A stretch of DNA of 48,336 nucleotides. It comes from Candidatus Latescibacterota bacterium. GTDB lineage: Bacteria; Latescibacterota; UBA2968. Numbering within the stretch: the stretch's first letter is position 1; each line of letters opens with the position of its first letter. Location: assembly GCA_022821275.1 (NCBI GenBank), contig JAJEDY010000044.1, positions 1 through 48,336 of the forward strand, written 5' to 3'. Under the pieces are notes generated by a model. That model searched no databases. It was not told the origin of the DNA and saw only the letters and a program-made list of their open reading frames with translations. Shown here in pieces: positions 27,413 through 38,395 of the stretch. The position numbers were made by a program, and so were the translations under genes.

Positions 27413-28735
27413 ATGATGTCGAATGAAAAGCCGAATGTGCTGGTGATTCAGCCCGATCAGCACCGCGGAACGGTGATGGGTTGTGCAGGTGACTCGCAGG
27501 TGAAAACGCCGAATCTGGACCGCCTTGCGTCGGAGGGGATCCGGTTTTCGCGCTGCGCCTCGTCCAGCCCTGTGTGTTCCCCATTTCGGGGGACGATGCA
27601 GACCGGATTGTATTGCCATACCCACGGTGTGGATGTGAACAATATTCTGCTGAATCCCGAACTGATCACGTTTGCCGACCTGTTTGCGGACGCGGGATAC
27701 GCCACAGGCTATATTGGGAAATGGCATTTAGATGGGGGCAAGCCCAGGGGATGGGGTGGATTTATTGAGCCTGGTCCAGGGCGAGCGGGATGGCAGGAAT
27801 GGCACGGATACCAGAAAGGGCACGAGTTTTTCGATGTCTGGGACTACAACGAGAATCGCGAGAGGGTGCGGATCGAAGGTTACGACTGGGAGCCAGCGTG
27901 GCATACGGATATGGCTCTGGACTTTGCAAAACGAAATCGCGACGCCGGTCGTCCCTGGCTCTACTATTTGGGATATGGTCCGCCGCACAAGCCCGAACAG
28001 TGCCCGCAGAAGTATCTGGATATGTACGATCCCAATACCTTTGAACTGCCAGATGATGTGAAGGGACGGTTCGGAGAACGGGAACGCGAGCTTCGGGAGC
28101 TTTATCAGATGTATTACGGGCAGGTAACGGCGGTGGATGTGGAGATCGGACGTGTGATGGCTGGCCTGGCGGAACTGGGAATTGCAGACAATACGATCGT
28201 GGTCTATGTAAGCGATCACGGCGACAAGCTGGGCAGTCACTGCGAACCCGATGAGCGCAACTTTCGAGGCAAAGGAAGTCCCTTTGCGACCGCGTTTCGC
28301 ATTCCGTTCATCGTGCGATGGCCCGATCGCATCAAGCCAAATCAGGTGTGTGACGCGCTGGTGAGTAGCGTGGATCTTACGCCCACGATTCTGGACCTGG
28401 CGGGATTGGAGGTTCCCGATGTGATGCAGGGCGACAGTATGGCGGGCTGGTGTCTGGAGGGAAAAGGCGTGGAGAACGACTGTGTATATATGGGACTCCG
28501 CGGGGCAACCCAGCCCGGTGGATGGCGTGCCGTATGGGATGGTCGCTATGTGTTTTCACCAGGGATTTACAATGTCCTGTATGACCACGAATCCGATCCG
28601 CTGGAGATGGAAAATCTCATCAACGCGCCGCAGATTTCGGGTGAGAAGAAGCGGTTAGCAGGGCTACTCGTACAGATGGCCGAGAAGACGGAAGATCCGG
28701 TGCTGCAGGAGGTGAAGGGCCTTTGCGGTATGTGA
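27413..28735 (+). CDS. Type I sulfatase
   Basis: The 440-residue protein has the sulfatase signature CSPFR at residues 55-59, where C55 is the formylglycine precursor. Metal ligands are suggested by VIQPDQH near residue 15 and VSDHGDKLG in the middle. No signal peptide is seen. It lies 55 bases after the repeat-protein gene on the same strand, so it may share its transcript; it converges with the next sulfatase, the two stop codons being adjacent. Two ATG codons in tandem (27413 and 27416) are equivalent starts, with GGAG just upstream. Confidence 0.88.
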   Translation: MMSNEKPNVLVIQPDQHRGTVMGCAGDSQVKTPNLDRLASEGIRFSRCASSSPVCSPFRGTMQTGLYCHTHGVDVNNILLNPELITFADLFADAGYATGYIGKWHLDGGKPRGWGGFIEPGPGRAGWQEWHGYQKGHEFFDVWDYNENRERVRIEGYDWEPAWHTDMALDFAKRNRDAGRPWLYYLGYGPPHKPEQCPQKYLDMYDPNTFELPDDVKGRFGERERELRELYQMYYGQVTAVDVEIGRVMAGLAELGIADNTIVVYVSDHGDKLGSHCEPDERNFRGKGSPFATAFRIPFIVRWPDRIKPNQVCDALVSSVDLTPTILDLAGLEVPDVMQGDSMAGWCLEGKGVENDCVYMGLRGATQPGGWRAVWDGRYVFSPGIYNVLYDHESDPLEMENLINAPQISGEKKRLAGLLVQMAEKTEDPVLQEVKGLCGM

Positions 28736-30034
28736 TCATCCCTGACCGTCATCGCGGTCATACGCACTTTCCCACGCCTTCACCCGTTCAAACAGCACGC
28801 CTATGCGTTCTTGATATCTTGTATCCTCAATCCGGTTATAAAACTCCTTTGGATCCTCCGCCAAATCAAAATACTCTCCTGCTTCACCCTGATATACATT
28901 CAATTTTTCCGTCTCCGTCCGAACCATCTGAGTATCACCAATCTGGCTGAATACCGCATCCCGCCAATCATCAGGGGCTGGCTCTCCATCTAACAACGGT
29001 TTCAACGACCGTCCGTGTACAGAGTCAGGGACCTCAGCCCCAATCAAATCACAAATCGTCGGGAACAAATCAATGTGTTCTACCAGTTCATCCCGTACTC
29101 CTGATCGTATTCTTGGATCAGAAATCAACAGCGGCACATGCGCCGAAGCCTCTCGCATATTAAACTTCAAAAACATCTCGTGTTCCCACATCTGGTCGCC
29201 GTGATCTGCCGTCCAGATCACAATGGTCTCGTCCCTGATCCCCAACCGATCCAACGCATCTAAAACCATTCCACAATACCCATCCACAAGCTCTATCATT
29301 CCATAATATCCCGCAATTACCTGCCGCAGTTCCACAGGTGTCAAATGCGCCCATTCTTTTCGTTTCCTCAAAATATCACTGTGGGGCAAGGGCGCATCAG
29401 CAGGTGCTTGCTCTGGTAATTCGATCTTTGACTGGTCGATCTTTTCATAAATTTCTTTGGGCGGATAAAACGGGGGATGAGGCTCTGTAAAACTCGTCCA
29501 GGATAGAAATTTCTCCCCTTTGCTGACGGCTTCTTCAATCTGCCGAATTGACTCTGTCGCAACATGATATCCCCAATACTGCTCCCGACTTCGCGGACTT
29601 GGCCCCCCAGATGACCGCCGCAATACGCCCTCATTTTCCCAATCGTATCGGGCCAGCATATCCTCAGGCATTGTCTCGCGCCACATCTGTTGCGTAATCT
29701 CTGGCTCATAGCCATTGTCCATATCGGGATCTTTCCAGTGCATATGGCCCAGGTGGAACCGACGATAATTCAAGGGTTGTACAGCATGTGCAATTGTGTA
29801 CATCCCCGGATAAGGCATTGCGTTATTGGTAAAGACGCCATGTGCGTGGACATATTTGCCGGTTGCCAAACTGTGCCGCGCTGGCGAACACACTGGCGAC
29901 TGTGTATAACACTGGTCAAATCGCACACTCATTTCGGCCAGACGATCGAGATTGGGCGTATGAGCCAGTGGATTTCCCAGACACCCCAACGCATCAAATC
30001 TGTGATGATCACTCATCAAGACAAGTACATTCAT
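28736..30034 (-). CDS. Type I sulfatase, last gene of the DUF1552 operon
   Basis: The 432-residue protein has CSPAR at residues 49-53 as the formylglycine motif. MSDHHRFDALG at the N-terminus and WTADHGDQMWEHE in the middle provide the usual metal and active-site residues. No signal peptide is seen. The ATG at 30034 has AGGAGA at a good distance; an upstream start at 30052 would overlap the preceding gene's region. It starts 18 bases after the stop of the other sulfatase gene of this operon. The C-terminal region (FDLAEDPKEFYN) has the conserved sulfatase D-P-E/K-E-x-x-N motif. Confidence 0.88.
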   Translation of the reverse strand: MNVLVLMSDHHRFDALGCLGNPLAHTPNLDRLAEMSVRFDQCYTQSPVCSPARHSLATGKYVHAHGVFTNNAMPYPGMYTIAHAVQPLNYRRFHLGHMHWKDPDMDNGYEPEITQQMWRETMPEDMLARYDWENEGVLRRSSGGPSPRSREQYWGYHVATESIRQIEEAVSKGEKFLSWTSFTEPHPPFYPPKEIYEKIDQSKIELPEQAPADAPLPHSDILRKRKEWAHLTPVELRQVIAGYYGMIELVDGYCGMVLDALDRLGIRDETIVIWTADHGDQMWEHEMFLKFNMREASAHVPLLISDPRIRSGVRDELVEHIDLFPTICDLIGAEVPDSVHGRSLKPLLDGEPAPDDWRDAVFSQIGDTQMVRTETEKLNVYQGEAGEYFDLAEDPKEFYNRIEDTRYQERIGVLFERVKAWESAYDRDDGQG

Positions 30035-30052
30035 CAATAAATCTCCTTTCAA

Positions 30053-31300
30053 TCAACTCCTCGTTCGATTTCTCCATTGGTTGAGCGCGATGAGCATGCT
30101 GTCTCTGGTTTTGTCGTCCAGGCTCTGAGCCAGATTATTGAGTTCATACGGATCGTTCGCCAGATCAAAGCAATGCGTAATGTCATTCTCGTTCTGCCTG
30201 GTAACCAGCTTTACGTCGCCCCTGATAATGCAATCATCTTTGTGCTCAATGAAGACATCGGTTGAGATATCTGGCTCTCCGGTCAGGCAGGGGAGCAGAG
30301 AGCGGCCTTCAGTTTCTCCTGAATTTTCAGCATGGGCCAGATGGAGAATCGTGGCGAATAGATCTACTGTAGATACTGGGCTTTCAATAGCGCGTTGTGC
30401 TGTTCCGGGTACGCGGATAAGCAGGGGCACGCGAACAGACTCATCGAACATAACGCCCTTTCCGAACAAGCCATGACAACCGGCCATATCGCCATGGTCA
30501 GATGTGAAGATGACGACAGTATCATTTGCCAGTCCAGTCTTTTCCAGTGTTTTCAATATGCGGCCAAACGCGGTGTCCAACTGAGAGATTTCCCCGAAGT
30601 ACCGCTTCCTGAATTCTTCAACACCGTAGTCCGCATTCCAGCCTGTGTTCTTGAACCAGGCGTCGCGGTCCGTGCTGGAGGGACCATCCATTACGGACTT
30701 ATCATATCGCTGCAGGTCGTCCAGAGGGGGGGAACAGGGAGGGTGGGGGGCTTGATACGATACTGCCATGAAGAATGGGGACTCCGGGGAGGATAGAGAT
30801 GCCAGTTCATCGCAGACAATATCTGTTAGACCATCAGTTTCGTGCCCACGAAGCTTTACGGGGGTGTCGGGATCGTCGCGCCAGATCAGTCCGGCATTGT
30901 GATCTACATGGTGGCTTTCCCACCCAATGAAGTGTTGAAAGCCTCCCCGCAGTTCTGGCGGGACCCATCCGTTCTGTTGTTTACCGCTCAAATGCCATTT
31001 CCCGATATAGTGCGTGTCATAACCCGCCTGGTTCAGATGATGAGCAATGGTCGGCTGATTCACGGGGAGGCGCATACCATTCCCCGTAACGCCGGTCTGA
31101 CTCGGGTATTGTCCGGTGAGCAGGCAAGCTCTGTATGGGGTGCATATCGGTACATTTGTATAGGCGCGATTGAATTGCGCGTTTTGTGCGGCGAATTGTG
31201 ATAGGTTGGGGGCGTGAACGATATGGTTCCCGTAGAACGGCAACCATCTGGCGCTAAGCTGATCGGGAAATATGAATAGGATATTTGGTCTGTGTATCAT
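30053..31300 (-). CDS. Type I sulfatase, third gene of the DUF1552 operon
   Basis: The 415-residue protein carries CTPYR at residues 53-57 as its modification site. ILFIFPDQLSARW near the N-terminus and FTSDHGDMAGCHG in the middle give the metal-site and active-site pattern. The ending FDLANDPYELNNLA is the family C-terminal motif. No signal peptide is present. It lies 37 bases downstream of the DUF1592 gene and 18 bases upstream of another sulfatase gene. The ribosome binding site is weak, so its translation may depend on coupling (inference). Confidence 0.88.
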   Translation of the reverse strand: MIHRPNILFIFPDQLSARWLPFYGNHIVHAPNLSQFAAQNAQFNRAYTNVPICTPYRACLLTGQYPSQTGVTGNGMRLPVNQPTIAHHLNQAGYDTHYIGKWHLSGKQQNGWVPPELRGGFQHFIGWESHHVDHNAGLIWRDDPDTPVKLRGHETDGLTDIVCDELASLSSPESPFFMAVSYQAPHPPCSPPLDDLQRYDKSVMDGPSSTDRDAWFKNTGWNADYGVEEFRKRYFGEISQLDTAFGRILKTLEKTGLANDTVVIFTSDHGDMAGCHGLFGKGVMFDESVRVPLLIRVPGTAQRAIESPVSTVDLFATILHLAHAENSGETEGRSLLPCLTGEPDISTDVFIEHKDDCIIRGDVKLVTRQNENDITHCFDLANDPYELNNLAQSLDDKTRDSMLIALNQWRNRTRS

Positions 31301-31337
31301 GTGTTTGGGGTAGGGGAGAGGTCAATTAATCCTTTTT

Positions 31338-33800
31338 TTAGTTGCTTTTGAAAGGGTCGCTCAAAATGACGAGGGTGATAAGATCGCGCAGGCTTTTATT
31401 TTTTTCCTGTACATCCTGGACTATTGCATCAATCGCCGGTCGATCAGAAATGCCCAACTCGCGACCAATTGCGTAGGTCAGCAATTTTTCTGTCAGACAA
31501 CGCGTGAACTCTGCGTGACGCTTTGTCATGAGCTCGCGAAATTCGACGAAGGATTGAAAGGTCTCGCCACTCGGCAATTGTCCCGAAGGATCAATCGTTG
31601 CGCTTCTGGTATAGTGAGTTCGCCAACCGCCGATTGCATCAAAGTTTTCCAGCGCAAAACCAGGCGGATCAATTTTGCTATGACATTGGGCGCAGGTCGG
31701 CATCTCGCGGTGCTTGACCAGTTGATCTCTGATGGTTGTTGCTCCGCGCGTGTCTGGCTCAATCTCAGGTACATCGTCCGGCGGTGGCGGCGGTGTGTAT
31801 CCCAGCACATTTTCCAGCACATAAATCCCGCGCACCACAGGCGAAGTATCTACGCCATTGGCCGAAGCCATGAGAAAACTGCCCTGGCCCAGCAGACCAC
31901 CGCGTGGTGTTCCTGTGAGCGGAACCCGGCGAAAGTGATCTCCTTCAATACCTTCTATCCCATAATGCCGGGCGAGTTCTCGATTGAGAAAGGAATAATC
32001 AGCAGAAAGAAATTCGCGGGGCGAGAGATTGTTGTCGAGTACGTGCCGAAAAAACGTCTCTGTTTCAGTCACCATAGCAGGGCCGAGATTGTCGCGGAAA
32101 TAGACTCTAAAATCCGGGGAGGGTGGCATCTCGCCAATGTTGTCATAGTTGAGCCATACGCGAATGAAATTTTTAACAAAGCGTTGCGACTTTGCGTCTT
32201 TGAGCATGCGATGGATCTGATTATCGAGTGTAGCAGGATCGCTGAGTTTCTTTTGCTGTGCCAGTGCTATCAGTTCATCATCTGGCGCTGCAGACCACAG
32301 AAAATAGGATAGCCGGGCAGATAGAGAATAGTCGTCCAGAGCGCCTTCGCCTTCGTGTAAAAACAGAAAAGCTGGCGCATTGAGAATGGCCTGGAAGCCC
32401 AGTTGTAATGCGGACAACGGCGCCATGCCATTGCTGAGTTTTTCATGTACAAGCGACTCAAATGGTGCGAGTTCGCCCGGGCGCAAGGGCCTGCGAAAAG
32501 CGGCTGTGGCAAATGCACGCAAACGCTCTGAAATACGCTTTTGATCCAGATCCTCGGGTTTTAGGTCGCCATACATCAACTGATGTCCGCGTGGAGGCCA
32601 GTCTTTTTCTTGAGGACCGCTAACCTGAATTTCCCAAACCCTTAGCTTAGGCCCGCGGTAAACCTTGAGCAGCGCGTGATTTCTTATATTTCCCGCTTTC
32701 TGGTCCACGAAGGGCAGGATTTCGGGTTTTGGATCTTTTGCCTTAGTAAGTTTGCGAACCAGGGCTTTGGTTGCCAGCGTTCCATTGCGGAAACGAACCT
32801 CTGGCTCAAATCCCTTTTCCAGATAAACATCCCATTCAAACCACTGAGGCTCTTCACGGGTCAGTTCAACAGTTGCAAGCGTGTATTCGCGAGAAATGTT
32901 GCCCGTACTCTGCACACTGCCTTTGCGATCTACAGCCGCCAGTTCCAGCACAAGCGGGTCGCCTTTGGGAAAATCGTTGAGTTCTCTGTCATAATGGTGA
33001 TTGCGATCAATTGCTGCCGCCCGCACCCTTATGGTGTAGGTACCACTGACAGGGGCGCCACCATTCGCCAGCGGATAAAAGCCAATATGACCACCGCGGT
33101 AATGACGTCCAGTGAGATCATCGTATCCCGTATCTGACACAAACCGAAAGCGATCCTCTCTAAAAACCTTGGGCAAGGACAAGGAATTGGCCTGTTTGTT
33201 TGTAAAATAGAAGGGCGATTTTTGCACGTAATTTTTGGCTTCGGGTCTGGCTTCAAAATGCGTGGCGCGTGTGACGGCTTCTTCAGCGACACGCAAATAG
33301 TGATCGAGCAACAGGCCCGACGTGACAAGCCCGGCAGCATTGTTATCAAAGCCTTTGACTTTCACTTCGGGCGGAAAATCCTCCGTAGGATCCCAGGCTT
33401 CCATATTCAGGCCGAGTAAATCGCCGAGTGTCTGGCGATATTCCCAGGCGTTGAGCCGCCTCAAAGGTGTGTGCTGTCTTTTGCCCGACAATCGCATACG
33501 CGCTTCGGCAATCGATGCTGTAATTACCTGAACAGTGGCGAGCACCTCATCTTTACCCGGCTGCATCTGGCGCTTTGGTGGCATCGATTGCAGGTTGAGC
33601 TGATCGACAATATCCTGCCAGAGTTCTAATTCTTTGAAGTTGGCAATTGTCTCGGAAAACTGATCAAAGCGCCGATCGGCTTTTTGCACACTTGAACCGT
33701 GACACTTTACGCAATATTGTGTGAGGAATGCCCTGGGCAGTTCTGCCCAGACAGAATGCGTGCATAGCGTGAAGATAATAATCAGCAAGATCCGTTTCAT
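31338..33800 (-). CDS. DUF1592-family protein with c-type heme motifs (planctomycete-type)
   Basis: The 820-residue protein has a signal peptide (residues 1-19, ending VWA) and two CxxCH heme-binding motifs: CVKCH at residues 30-34 and CAQCH near residue 687, the second followed by SKIDPPGFALENFDAIG. Between them the order matches the DUF1587, DUF1595, DUF1592 and DUF1588 blocks, followed by DUF1585. The signs are LRRLNAWEYRQTLGDLLGL (DUF1587) and GQGSFLMASANGVDTSPVVRG (DUF1588). The function is unknown; redox chemistry in the periplasm is inferred from the heme sites. The ATG overlaps the stop of the DUF1552 gene by four bases (ATGA). These two genes are usually found together in planctomycete-type genomes. 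Confidence 0.88.
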   Translation of the reverse strand: MKRILLIIIFTLCTHSVWAELPRAFLTQYCVKCHGSSVQKADRRFDQFSETIANFKELELWQDIVDQLNLQSMPPKRQMQPGKDEVLATVQVITASIAEARMRLSGKRQHTPLRRLNAWEYRQTLGDLLGLNMEAWDPTEDFPPEVKVKGFDNNAAGLVTSGLLLDHYLRVAEEAVTRATHFEARPEAKNYVQKSPFYFTNKQANSLSLPKVFREDRFRFVSDTGYDDLTGRHYRGGHIGFYPLANGGAPVSGTYTIRVRAAAIDRNHHYDRELNDFPKGDPLVLELAAVDRKGSVQSTGNISREYTLATVELTREEPQWFEWDVYLEKGFEPEVRFRNGTLATKALVRKLTKAKDPKPEILPFVDQKAGNIRNHALLKVYRGPKLRVWEIQVSGPQEKDWPPRGHQLMYGDLKPEDLDQKRISERLRAFATAAFRRPLRPGELAPFESLVHEKLSNGMAPLSALQLGFQAILNAPAFLFLHEGEGALDDYSLSARLSYFLWSAAPDDELIALAQQKKLSDPATLDNQIHRMLKDAKSQRFVKNFIRVWLNYDNIGEMPPSPDFRVYFRDNLGPAMVTETETFFRHVLDNNLSPREFLSADYSFLNRELARHYGIEGIEGDHFRRVPLTGTPRGGLLGQGSFLMASANGVDTSPVVRGIYVLENVLGYTPPPPPDDVPEIEPDTRGATTIRDQLVKHREMPTCAQCHSKIDPPGFALENFDAIGGWRTHYTRSATIDPSGQLPSGETFQSFVEFRELMTKRHAEFTRCLTEKLLTYAIGRELGISDRPAIDAIVQDVQEKNKSLRDLITLVILSDPFKSN

Positions 33801-35050
33801 GAAATCTCCATCGCAGAAAAGGTCCTTGTGCTTTTGCCAAAACTATCCCGCTCTACACCAAACCACTGCAAGACGGAAAGCCAGAGATTTGACAGGGGAA
33901 TCCGTTTGTGTGCCTCAGCAGGACACACGAGATGTCCTTGATGTTTTAAACCGCCCCCCGCGAGAATTACTGGCAAATTCCTATTGGAATGCCTTGAGCC
34001 ATCGCCCATGCCACTTCCCAGAACGACCAATGTGTCGTCAAACACCTTGGCTTCTTTGAGACGATCCAGAAACCGACTAAACTGGGTCAATAAATATTTT
34101 TCCACAATCTGCAGGTCTTTCAATCGTCCCTCCTCCTGGCCGTGATGCGAAAGGCCGTGATATCCACCAAGATTGAGTTCGGACGTCTTAAAGCCCATGG
34201 GGATTTCAAAGGTCACAACCCGTGTCGAGTCTGTCTGTAATGCCAGTGTTAGCAGATCGTAAAAAAGCGGCATTTCCTCAATTTGCATCCGTTCGAGGTC
34301 TTCCACAGGTTCAATTGGGGATTCTGGCTTGGGTTTGTCGAGCCATTCGCGCGACATTTGCAGGCGACGCTCGACATCGCGCACCGAAGTCAGGTATTGG
34401 TCCAGCTTACCGCGATCCGCCGCATTTAACTGCCCATCGAGTGTCTTTGCCGACGCGAGCAAGGCGTCAAGTACGCTGCCCCGATTTGATAATGTGCGAC
34501 GCTCTGCGCTTTGCGTAGCTGCATCATTCTGTACAAACAAAGCCTGGAAAATGCGGGCGGGATTGTTAATCGGTGCCACATTTACGCCCGACCGCGTCCA
34601 TACCATGTCTGTACCTCCGCCCAGCCCTGCAGTAATTGAGGGAAAGCGCGTTGTGCTGCCCACATGCTCAGCCGCGACCTGATCCAGCGTCATATTTTTT
34701 TCGGGGAAACCCGCGGCTTCTTCCTTGCGTATGCTGCTCAGAAATACATGTACGCCGGAGTGCCCTCCGCCCGTACCGTGATCGAGATTTGAAAAGATAG
34801 TAAAATCATCCCGATGTGAATCGATATATTTCAAGCTCAGGCTCGTCTCATAGTCCTTTCCGGACTGCTCGGGGAAAAATCCACCAGGCCAGAATCCCAG
34901 ATGATTGCCCACGCAGACCAGACGCCTCGGATTTGTCGCACCGTACACCATGTTGCTTTCTAAGAAGGGCAAAGATAGGGCTATGCCTGCGCCCTGTAAA
35001 AAGTGTCTGCGATTAACTCTTGCTTGCAAAAGTTCAGAAATGACGTTCAT
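33797..35050 (-). CDS. DUF1552-family protein with twin-arginine signal
   Basis: The 417-residue protein has a twin-arginine motif, NRRHFLQGAG, at residues 13-22, indicating folded export. The remainder resembles the DUF1552 family: RRLVCVGNHLGFWPGGFFPE, a HGTGGGHSGVH segment, and later VLGSGMGDGSRHSNRNLPVILAGGG near the end, which recalls the alkaline-phosphatase-like/sulfatase core. The function is unknown. It is the first gene of an operon with DUF1592 and two sulfatases. The ATG at 35050 has GAGG at a suitable distance, and a strong promoter lies upstream. Confidence 0.88.
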   Translation of the reverse strand: MNVISELLQARVNRRHFLQGAGIALSLPFLESNMVYGATNPRRLVCVGNHLGFWPGGFFPEQSGKDYETSLSLKYIDSHRDDFTIFSNLDHGTGGGHSGVHVFLSSIRKEEAAGFPEKNMTLDQVAAEHVGSTTRFPSITAGLGGGTDMVWTRSGVNVAPINNPARIFQALFVQNDAATQSAERRTLSNRGSVLDALLASAKTLDGQLNAADRGKLDQYLTSVRDVERRLQMSREWLDKPKPESPIEPVEDLERMQIEEMPLFYDLLTLALQTDSTRVVTFEIPMGFKTSELNLGGYHGLSHHGQEEGRLKDLQIVEKYLLTQFSRFLDRLKEAKVFDDTLVVLGSGMGDGSRHSNRNLPVILAGGGLKHQGHLVCPAEAHKRIPLSNLWLSVLQWFGVERDSFGKSTRTFSAMEIS

Positions 35051-36703: not shown

Positions 36704-36732
36704 TTGATAATTCGGCTTGTGGGACGTATCTT
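36704..36732 (+). promoter_or_regulatory. Candidate promoter for the LamG/propeller gene
   Basis: TTGATA at 36704-36709 and TATCTT at 36727-36732 are spaced by 17 bases. A leader of about 43 bases would precede the ATG at 36782. Confidence 0.4.
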
Positions 36733-36781: not shown

Positions 36782-38395
36782 ATGCTGCGAGTCAGCGACC
36801 CCGACCTGATCGCCCACTGGCCATTCCGGGAAGACCTGGAAGACCATTCCGAAAGCGGCCTGTCCATCCAAAATCACGGCGTTGAGATCGGGGAATCAGG
36901 CGGACAAAGAAGCGCCCAATTCAACGGGGCGGAAACCTTTCTGGAAGTTCCCTGCAACCTGTCTATAGGGACAGGCGATTTTTCATTCGCCGGATGGATC
37001 CACACGGATGAATCCGAAGTGGTCGGCGACATCCTCAGCCAATTCGATCCGGAAACCCGCCAGGGGTGGCAGGTCTCAGTCCTCACCCAAACTGGCATGA
37101 CTTCCACCGCGCAATCGAATTACCGCAATCTCCATTTCGGCATCGACAACGGGTATCTCGGGTCCTGGACCGATTGTGGTCGTCCCGGTCAGGCAGTCAA
37201 GATATCTGCACTTTCGACAATAGGTGGACACCTGTACGCGGGCACTTTCGAGAACGGTGAAGAAGAGGTCGGCCATCTGTGGTGCTACGAGGGGGAAGAA
37301 CGCTGGACCGACCTGGGCAATCCAGTCGGATGCAATAGCGTCAACGCCGTTGTCGAATTTCAAGGTGCGCTCTACTGCGCCCTTGGTCGGTATAATTCCA
37401 GCGGATCCGCCCTGGGCGATCCTCTGAATACCACACCCGGCGGTCAGGTCTATCGGGTCGATGCCGATGGCCAATGGACTTTTTGCGGGCATCCTGGCAT
37501 CGAAGACGCCACACCCGAAGAAACACCTACCACGGGACATAACACGGGCAAAGCCGACAACGCCACCGCCCTCACAGTCTATCAGGGCCGGCTCTACGCC
37601 ACCAGCCTCTATCGCGAAGGCGCCTTTGTCTATGATGGCGGCACCACCTGGACGCCCATAGGTCCAGACGTGCGGCTGATGAGTTTCACCATCTATCGGG
37701 ACCGGCTCTACACCCTCGTCAACGGCGGCCCGGTTCTTCGCTACGAAGGCAACGCCGAATGGACCGACTGCGGCTGCCCCGAAGCCTCTACTCAGACCTA
37801 CTCGGCGGTCACTTTTAAGGGCCAGTTCTATGTCGGCACCTGGCCCCAGGGCGAAGTCTATCGATATGACGGCAATACGACCTGGACGTGTCTGGGCCGG
37901 GTCGGGTACGAACGTGAAATCATGGCCATGGGACTTTACAACGGCAAAGTCTATATCGGCTCGCTCCCAATGGCCAATGTCTGGCGGATGGACGGCAATC
38001 GGTTTACATTCCTGGCGTCTCTGGACCGAACGTCCGCGCCTCTGCGGCGGGTCTGGTCCATGTCCGTTTATCAGGGCCGCCTCTATGCCGGCACCCTGCC
38101 GTCCGGGCATGTCTATTCGGTCGAAGCCGGAAAAGTCGCTACCTGGGACCACGCATTTCCCGAAGGATGGCGACACGTAGCCGCCGTCAAGCAAGGCGGT
38201 GTTCTGACCCTGTACGTCGATGGAACCCCCGTCGCTACAACAGACAGCTTCAATCCAAGACGCTACGACCTCAATCCCAACTGCCCCCTCTTAATCGGAT
38301 TTGGTGCCCACGACTATTTTAAAGGCGCTCTGCGGGACCTCCGTATCTATCGTCGGGGTCTCACACCACGGGAAATCCAGAACCTCGCCAGATGA
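36782..38395 (+). CDS. LamG-like (concanavalin-fold) protein with a seven-bladed propeller inserted
   Basis: The protein has 537 residues from the ATG at 36782, preceded by GAGG. Residues 1-124 look like the first half of a LamG/concanavalin-like sandwich (LIAHWPFREDLEDHSE, then FSFAGWIHTDE, then NLHFGIDNG). At about residue 456 the sandwich resumes with EGWRHVAAVKQGGVLTLYVDG and ends FKGALRDLRIYRRGLTPREIQ. Between them, seven repeats each contain a W-T-x-x-G-type element (SWTDCG, RWTDLG, QWTFCG, TWTPIG, EWTDCG, TWTCLG, RFTFLA), the pattern of a kelch-like seven-bladed propeller. No signal peptide is seen. The base composition is richer in G and C than in the neighbours. The function is unknown; a sugar or protein-binding role is likely. 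Confidence 0.75.
   Translation: MLRVSDPDLIAHWPFREDLEDHSESGLSIQNHGVEIGESGGQRSAQFNGAETFLEVPCNLSIGTGDFSFAGWIHTDESEVVGDILSQFDPETRQGWQVSVLTQTGMTSTAQSNYRNLHFGIDNGYLGSWTDCGRPGQAVKISALSTIGGHLYAGTFENGEEEVGHLWCYEGEERWTDLGNPVGCNSVNAVVEFQGALYCALGRYNSSGSALGDPLNTTPGGQVYRVDADGQWTFCGHPGIEDATPEETPTTGHNTGKADNATALTVYQGRLYATSLYREGAFVYDGGTTWTPIGPDVRLMSFTIYRDRLYTLVNGGPVLRYEGNAEWTDCGCPEASTQTYSAVTFKGQFYVGTWPQGEVYRYDGNTTWTCLGRVGYEREIMAMGLYNGKVYIGSLPMANVWRMDGNRFTFLASLDRTSAPLRRVWSMSVYQGRLYAGTLPSGHVYSVEAGKVATWDHAFPEGWRHVAAVKQGGVLTLYVDGTPVATTDSFNPRRYDLNPNCPLLIGFGAHDYFKGALRDLRIYRRGLTPREIQNLAR

Follow-up and report, generated by a model that had tools for sequence, protein, structure and literature searches.

The window, that is, the whole 48,336-nucleotide stretch analysed (contig JAJEDY010000044.1 of the Candidatus Latescibacterota assembly GCA_022821275.1), carries a gene that runs from an ATG at 36782 to a stop codon at 38395 and encodes a protein of 537 residues. 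The product begins directly with a LamG-like sandwich, which appears to be split by an inserted β-propeller (Table 1). Differences from the relative L003 fall 28, 12, and 94 times at codon positions 1, 2, and 3, and 87 codons differ silently while 37 are replacing, indicating that the gene is real and under purifying selection.

The boundaries of the parts can be read from short motifs. The preliminary description placed FGIDNG near residue 124, and it is indeed found at residues 119-124; EGWRHVAAV, placed near residue 456, actually starts at residue 461, and the sandwich resumes at about 458-461. No signal peptide is visible by eye in the window protein, the upstream TTG start at 36704 included. 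That earlier observation holds for this protein and does not extend to the family, given that the relatives L143, L144, and L145 carry N-termini that look, by eye, like signal peptides.

Table 1. Coordinates of the gene and its predicted parts, and of a second group of LamG proteins with an inserted propeller
Feature	Position	Strand	Basis
Whole gene, 537 aa	36782..38395	+	open frame, homologues, codon-position bias
N-terminal half of LamG-like sandwich, residues 1-124, ending FGIDNG	36782..37153	+	hhalign, joined-score gain, conservation
Inserted seven-bladed β-propeller, residues ~125-457, Kelch-like repeats	37154..38152	+	AlphaFold, Foldseek, no LamG match
Outer strand, residues 126-131 around W129, just after N-terminal half	37157..37174	+	repeat register; short DSSP strand; pairing inferred
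Blade 1, residues 140-179	37199..37318	+	DSSP
Blade 2, residues 186-236; N185 immediately ahead	37337..37489	+	DSSP; conservation
Blade 3, residues 261-293; D259 immediately ahead	37562..37660	+	DSSP (both models); conservation
Blade 4, residues 299-331; R298 immediately ahead	37676..37774	+	DSSP; conservation
Blade 5, residues 338-373, starting with invariant Gln338; invariant W354-P355	37793..37900	+	DSSP; 29/29 relatives
Blade 6, residues 379-413, starting with invariant Glu379; invariant N387, P396, R402; FTFLA at 408	37916..38020	+	DSSP; conservation
Blade 7 strands a-c, residues 422-449, including invariant Arg423	38045..38128	+	DSSP; conservation
C-terminal half of LamG-like sandwich, residues 458-537, GWRHVAAV...LYVDG...RIYRRGLT	38153..38392	+	Laminin_G_3 8.4e-16, profile 70-151; hhalign
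DUF2341-LamG-propeller proteins	L148:566-2662; L149:414-2576; L150:270-2462 (-); L151:523-2595		Pfam excision

The interrupted sandwich

In the intact protein, Pfam detects Laminin_G_3 (PF13385), of the concanavalin A-like lectin/glucanase superfamily, in the C-terminal half only (residues 452-533, profile positions 70-151), at 58.9 bits against a curated cut-off of 27.6 bits. When residues ~125-457 are excised, the flanks jointly cover positions 2-151 of the 1-151 profile at 68.1 bits, a gain of 10.5 over the 57.6 bits of the C-terminal half alone, and a complete domain is attained only once the insert has been removed. Three shuffled N-terminal halves joined to the C-terminal half score 54.9-56.1 bits without extending the profile match. 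The N-terminal half alone gives nothing for the window protein, and nothing or 13.9 bits across the proteins tested. Among the relatives, the excised form scores 74.4 bits against 55.2 for L036, 69.3 against 53.0 for L038, 63.6 against 60.9 for L022, and 75.6 against 61.7 for L143.

Pieces of the family alignment were also compared by hhalign with an alignment of continuous LamG domains picked by PF13385, independently of the query. The N-terminal half falls on LamG columns 38-113 (95.5%, E 1.5e-8), the C-terminal half on columns 170-244 (98.8%, E 8e-17), and the excised whole on columns 38-244 (99.4%, E 5.5e-22); the propeller has no match to the LamG columns (2.5%). Residues 77-124 of the N-terminal half align poorly with other LamGs, and the insertion loop can therefore be placed only approximately. 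As a query, the excised sequence finds continuous LamG proteins that align across the junction in 14 of 14 cases, as against at most 3 for shuffles. The score summed over these 14 proteins is 635, compared with 509 ± 4.5 (maximum 529) for 200 shuffles of the N-terminal half and 519 when the halves are swapped. Because the 14 targets were chosen with the query, the shuffles are a partial control, and the hhalign comparison is the cleaner test. The junction is spanned only by such distant continuous LamGs (at most ~33% identity), with no close propeller-less relative to represent an "empty" site. Against the PDB, the N-terminal part of the family profile resembles the lectin-like sandwich 6hox, and the C-terminal part the LamG-type domain 4qvs. 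Within the N-terminal half, G82, R93, G95, G120, and D122 are invariant among the relatives.

Together, Pfam excision, the relatives, hhalign, and the junction-spanning alignments all agree with the preliminary proposal that the two halves make up one sandwich once the propeller is skipped, and on this sequence evidence the propeller is very probably nested inside the LamG domain. Compared with a standard Laminin_G_3, the window protein would thus carry an insert of ~333 residues immediately ahead of the W-x-H-V-A strand, and automatic annotation, which reports the C-terminal half only, can record "half a LamG" and overlook a 330-residue domain. The same split is kept in 29 of 29 non-redundant full-length relatives, down to ~31% identity, in the kind of homologue search that the preliminary description had suggested; as read from these alignments, the architecture is far beyond chance. 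A different reading, in which the propeller has an independent domain on each side (a β-rich cap at the N-terminus and, at the C-terminus, a LamG half completed in some other way, such as by domain swapping in a dimer or by a partner subunit), would accommodate the Pfam match to the C-terminal half alone in the intact protein, the N-terminal half's own score of nothing or 13.9 bits, and its unfolded state in the AlphaFold model, but it is highly improbable, since the halves occupy consecutive, non-overlapping columns of one LamG profile, the gains in joined score depend on sequence and order, and a domain-swapped dimer would still employ one propeller-split LamG fold.

The propeller and its polar ring

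Without an alignment, AlphaFold yields a poor model (pLDDT 46), and with an alignment of 12 sequences the propeller reaches pLDDT values mostly of 75-92 except in loops. DSSP finds seven a-b-c triplets plus outer strands in both models, and Foldseek agrees, in accord with the blade number given earlier. Of the seven W-T-x-x-G repeats then reported, six are strict (at 129, 175, 232, 290, 327, and 368), and the last, FTFLA at 408, is degenerate. Prediction over residues 1-537, which the preliminary description had proposed as a check for a single sandwich, resolves the propeller and not the sandwich: in the 12-sequence model most of the sandwich, including residues 12-64 and 77-125, lies below pLDDT 50, so that the mutual packing of the halves is not seen in three dimensions and we infer it.

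The outer strand around W129 precedes blade 1, and blade 7 ends after three strands, suggesting that blade 7 is closed by the N-terminal strand in a "velcro" arrangement. This closure would place both linkers to the sandwich on the same face of the propeller. Seven four-stranded blades, an outer-strand Trp, and the presumed velcro closure are shared with Kelch-like and other seven-bladed propellers (virginiamycin B lyase, 2qc5/2z2p, by structure and, weakly, the Keap1 Kelch domain by sequence). Unlike these, the window propeller falls below every Pfam propeller cut-off, has a Q/E/R ring, and is embedded in another domain. The Kelch models of Pfam do not match the window protein and give only a sub-threshold match in one relative. 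The best PDB matches in Foldseek include the seven-bladed virginiamycin B lyase (Vgb; TM-score by target 0.76-0.80, rmsd 3.8-4.5), at 8-9% identity and with no sequence match to Vgb in Pfam or the PDB. Neither the intact protein nor the propeller alone matches GH33 sialidase/BNR (Asp-box) models, and the blades number seven, not six.

Three residues, Q338, E379, and R423, are invariant in all 29 non-redundant relatives and share one register: each stands where inner strand a begins, in blade 5, 6, or 7 respectively. The equivalent register in blades 2-4 holds N185 (23/29), D259 (16/29), and R298 (23/29). From propeller topology, these six residues would lie at the rim of the central channel, and the polar ring of blades 2-7 is a putative ligand pocket; it could instead be structural. 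W354-P355, N387, P396, and R402 are likewise invariant among the 29 relatives.

The propeller also occurs in a secreted sister family, represented by L012:658-2331 in the same genome (G000:C64) and by L074:10603-12177 (-), with matches to the L012 family in 21 of the 64 genomes of the phylum. Profile comparison finds its propeller homologous to that of the split-LamG family (98.6%, E 6.6e-16), and Q/E/R is kept in 14 of 14 of its sequences. The sister family differs in having a signal peptide (by eye, a signal-peptide-like N-terminus in L012) and flanks unrecognisable as LamG, which give no LamG match in the profile comparison. The L074 gene has a member of the split-LamG family on each side, the two forming a tandem pair.

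Genomic setting and possible role

The neighbourhood in the window includes sulfatases, DUF1552 and DUF1587/1592-type proteins, an esterase, and DUF4838; at 27413-35050, three adjacent sulfatase genes are followed by DUF1587/1592/1588-type and DUF1552 genes. This gene content fits the description of Latescibacteria as algal polysaccharide degraders (PMC4454575). Among ~20 neighbourhoods, the neighbours vary between genomes, with no conserved operon beyond close relatives. Heparinase II/III genes near L079, L080, and L083 were considered as a functional link and set aside as background because such genes are abundant in these genomes (71 copies in G019, 32 in G024). The 71 Hepar_II_III_C matches in G019, a 5.3 Mb Latescibacterota genome, compare with 2-14 in several relatives.

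On these grounds we favour, with moderate confidence, a protein that binds a ligand through the polar ring, the likeliest ligand being a glycan. As the putative main role, glycan or small-ligand binding has prospects that we judge to be about even. In the mechanism we envisage, a single polypeptide would form a domain within a domain, the LamG/concanavalin-A-like sandwich being interrupted in the loop before the W-x-H-[VL]-A strand. On entering the propeller, the chain would first supply the outer strand of blade 7, and it would exit once the three inner strands of that blade were complete. Judging from the strand order, the propeller ends would then be neighbours on a single face, as suits insertion into a loop, and a double linker would join the domains. 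The opposite face would bear the polar ring, at the inner-strand starts of blades 2-7, as the ligand pocket. Here the propeller may recognise, and perhaps cleave, a carbohydrate or other small polar ligand, while the sandwich would serve as a platform and second binding surface. In this lineage, the protein would reside in the cytoplasm or be exported by an unrecognised route; the binding of glycans outside the cell is hard to reconcile with its missing signal peptide. As a whole, the account (nested fold, pocket, recognition of a glycan or small polar ligand, perhaps with cleavage, in polysaccharide degraders) could as easily prove right as wrong.

The main rival to glycan or ligand binding is catalysis, in which a lyase- or glycoside hydrolase-like propeller would have Glu379 and Arg423 in its active site and the sandwich as an accessory carbohydrate-binding module. 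The invariant Q, E, and R in one register, together with the invariant W354-P355 and N387, are consistent with this idea, as are the good Foldseek matches to virginiamycin B lyase and the retention of the triad in a secreted paralogue family with no recognisable LamG. However, no catalytic or other enzyme family is matched in Pfam or NCBIfam, the ring contains no invariant His, Tyr, or Lys, and structural likeness among seven-bladed propellers is uninformative about catalysis, and we consider a catalytic propeller unlikely. Less probable still is an intracellular scaffold whose propeller, like many Kelch propellers, serves as a platform for protein-protein interaction. Kelch-type repeats that weakly match Keap1 in sequence would fit, as would a window protein with neither a signal peptide nor a conserved enzyme partner, yet the strongest polar conservation lies at the inner-strand starts rather than across a broad surface, and other members bear signal peptides.

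Distribution and a second insertion

Relatives are present in 33 of 64 genomes of Candidatus Latescibacterota, in 16 of 291 genomes of the phylum of the Armatimonadota relative L009, and in 4 of 388 genomes of the phylum of the Verrucomicrobiota relative L008. These proteins make up a family that lacks annotation, offers a clear candidate for a functional site, and spans at least three bacterial phyla. Searches of phage, plasmid, viral-contig, PHROG, and defence collections find no full-length relative, and the PHROG matches cover the C-terminal half only. In the tree, the window protein groups with the relatives from Armatimonadota and Verrucomicrobiota (supports of 99/93 and 95/90), apart from most of those from Latescibacterota. 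This placement suggests transfer of the gene between phyla, to be read with the caution that metagenome bins require.

The folds are known and their nesting is new, in a conserved family for which the libraries searched hold no model. Above cut-off, Pfam and NCBIfam match only the C-terminal half, and literature searches likewise agree with the preliminary remark that no such family has been described. Prolyl oligopeptidase and dipeptidyl peptidase 4 also have a propeller flanked by parts of another domain that are separate in sequence; their host, however, is an α/β-hydrolase rather than a LamG sandwich, and no sequence relation to the window protein is seen. Sialidases of the Vibrio cholerae/GH33 type are also built as a domain within a domain, with the nesting reversed: a lectin-like domain interrupts the propeller of the V. 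cholerae enzyme (PMC2716378), and a domain is inserted in that of RgNanH (PMC4747158). Propellers with attached or inserted lectin domains are known already, and a whole propeller inside LamG is found neither in the libraries nor in text searches of the literature, whose reach excludes most subscription papers.

A second case occurs among the DUF2341-LamG proteins that this phylum also encodes, in which seven "DGRYVYF...LRYDT" repeats lie inside Laminin_G_3. Removal of the repeats raises the score from 66.4 bits for the C-terminal part alone to 81.2, over profile positions 6-151. Here, too, a propeller appears to be inserted in the domain, but ~45 residues before the W-H strand, compared with ~8 in the window family, and the two propellers are unrelated by profile (1.1%). 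The different loop and unrelated propeller argue that this insertion is independent, so that propellers would have entered LamG at least twice, suggesting that LamG loops are permissive insertion sites. More tentatively, the LamG sandwiches of these bacteria may tolerate whole-propeller insertion, with two or more such events involving different loops and unrelated propellers, and the Q-E-R propeller may be a new mobile, putatively catalytic or ligand-binding domain, secreted without LamG or nested in it, that acts on a polysaccharide-derived ligand.

Some individual sequences deserve comment. The N-terminal extension of L023 (a 977 aa frame) was considered as a fusion and rejected, as it reads as an open non-coding stretch ahead of the real ATG. 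Two contigs labelled Gemmatimonadota (L004, L005) have a 94% identical copy of the gene and themselves match G036, a genome of the window's own genus, so that they probably come from a misassigned bin. The Armatimonadota relative L009 has an in-frame TAG in mid-propeller (L009:6901-6903), reflecting either recent inactivation or a sequence error.
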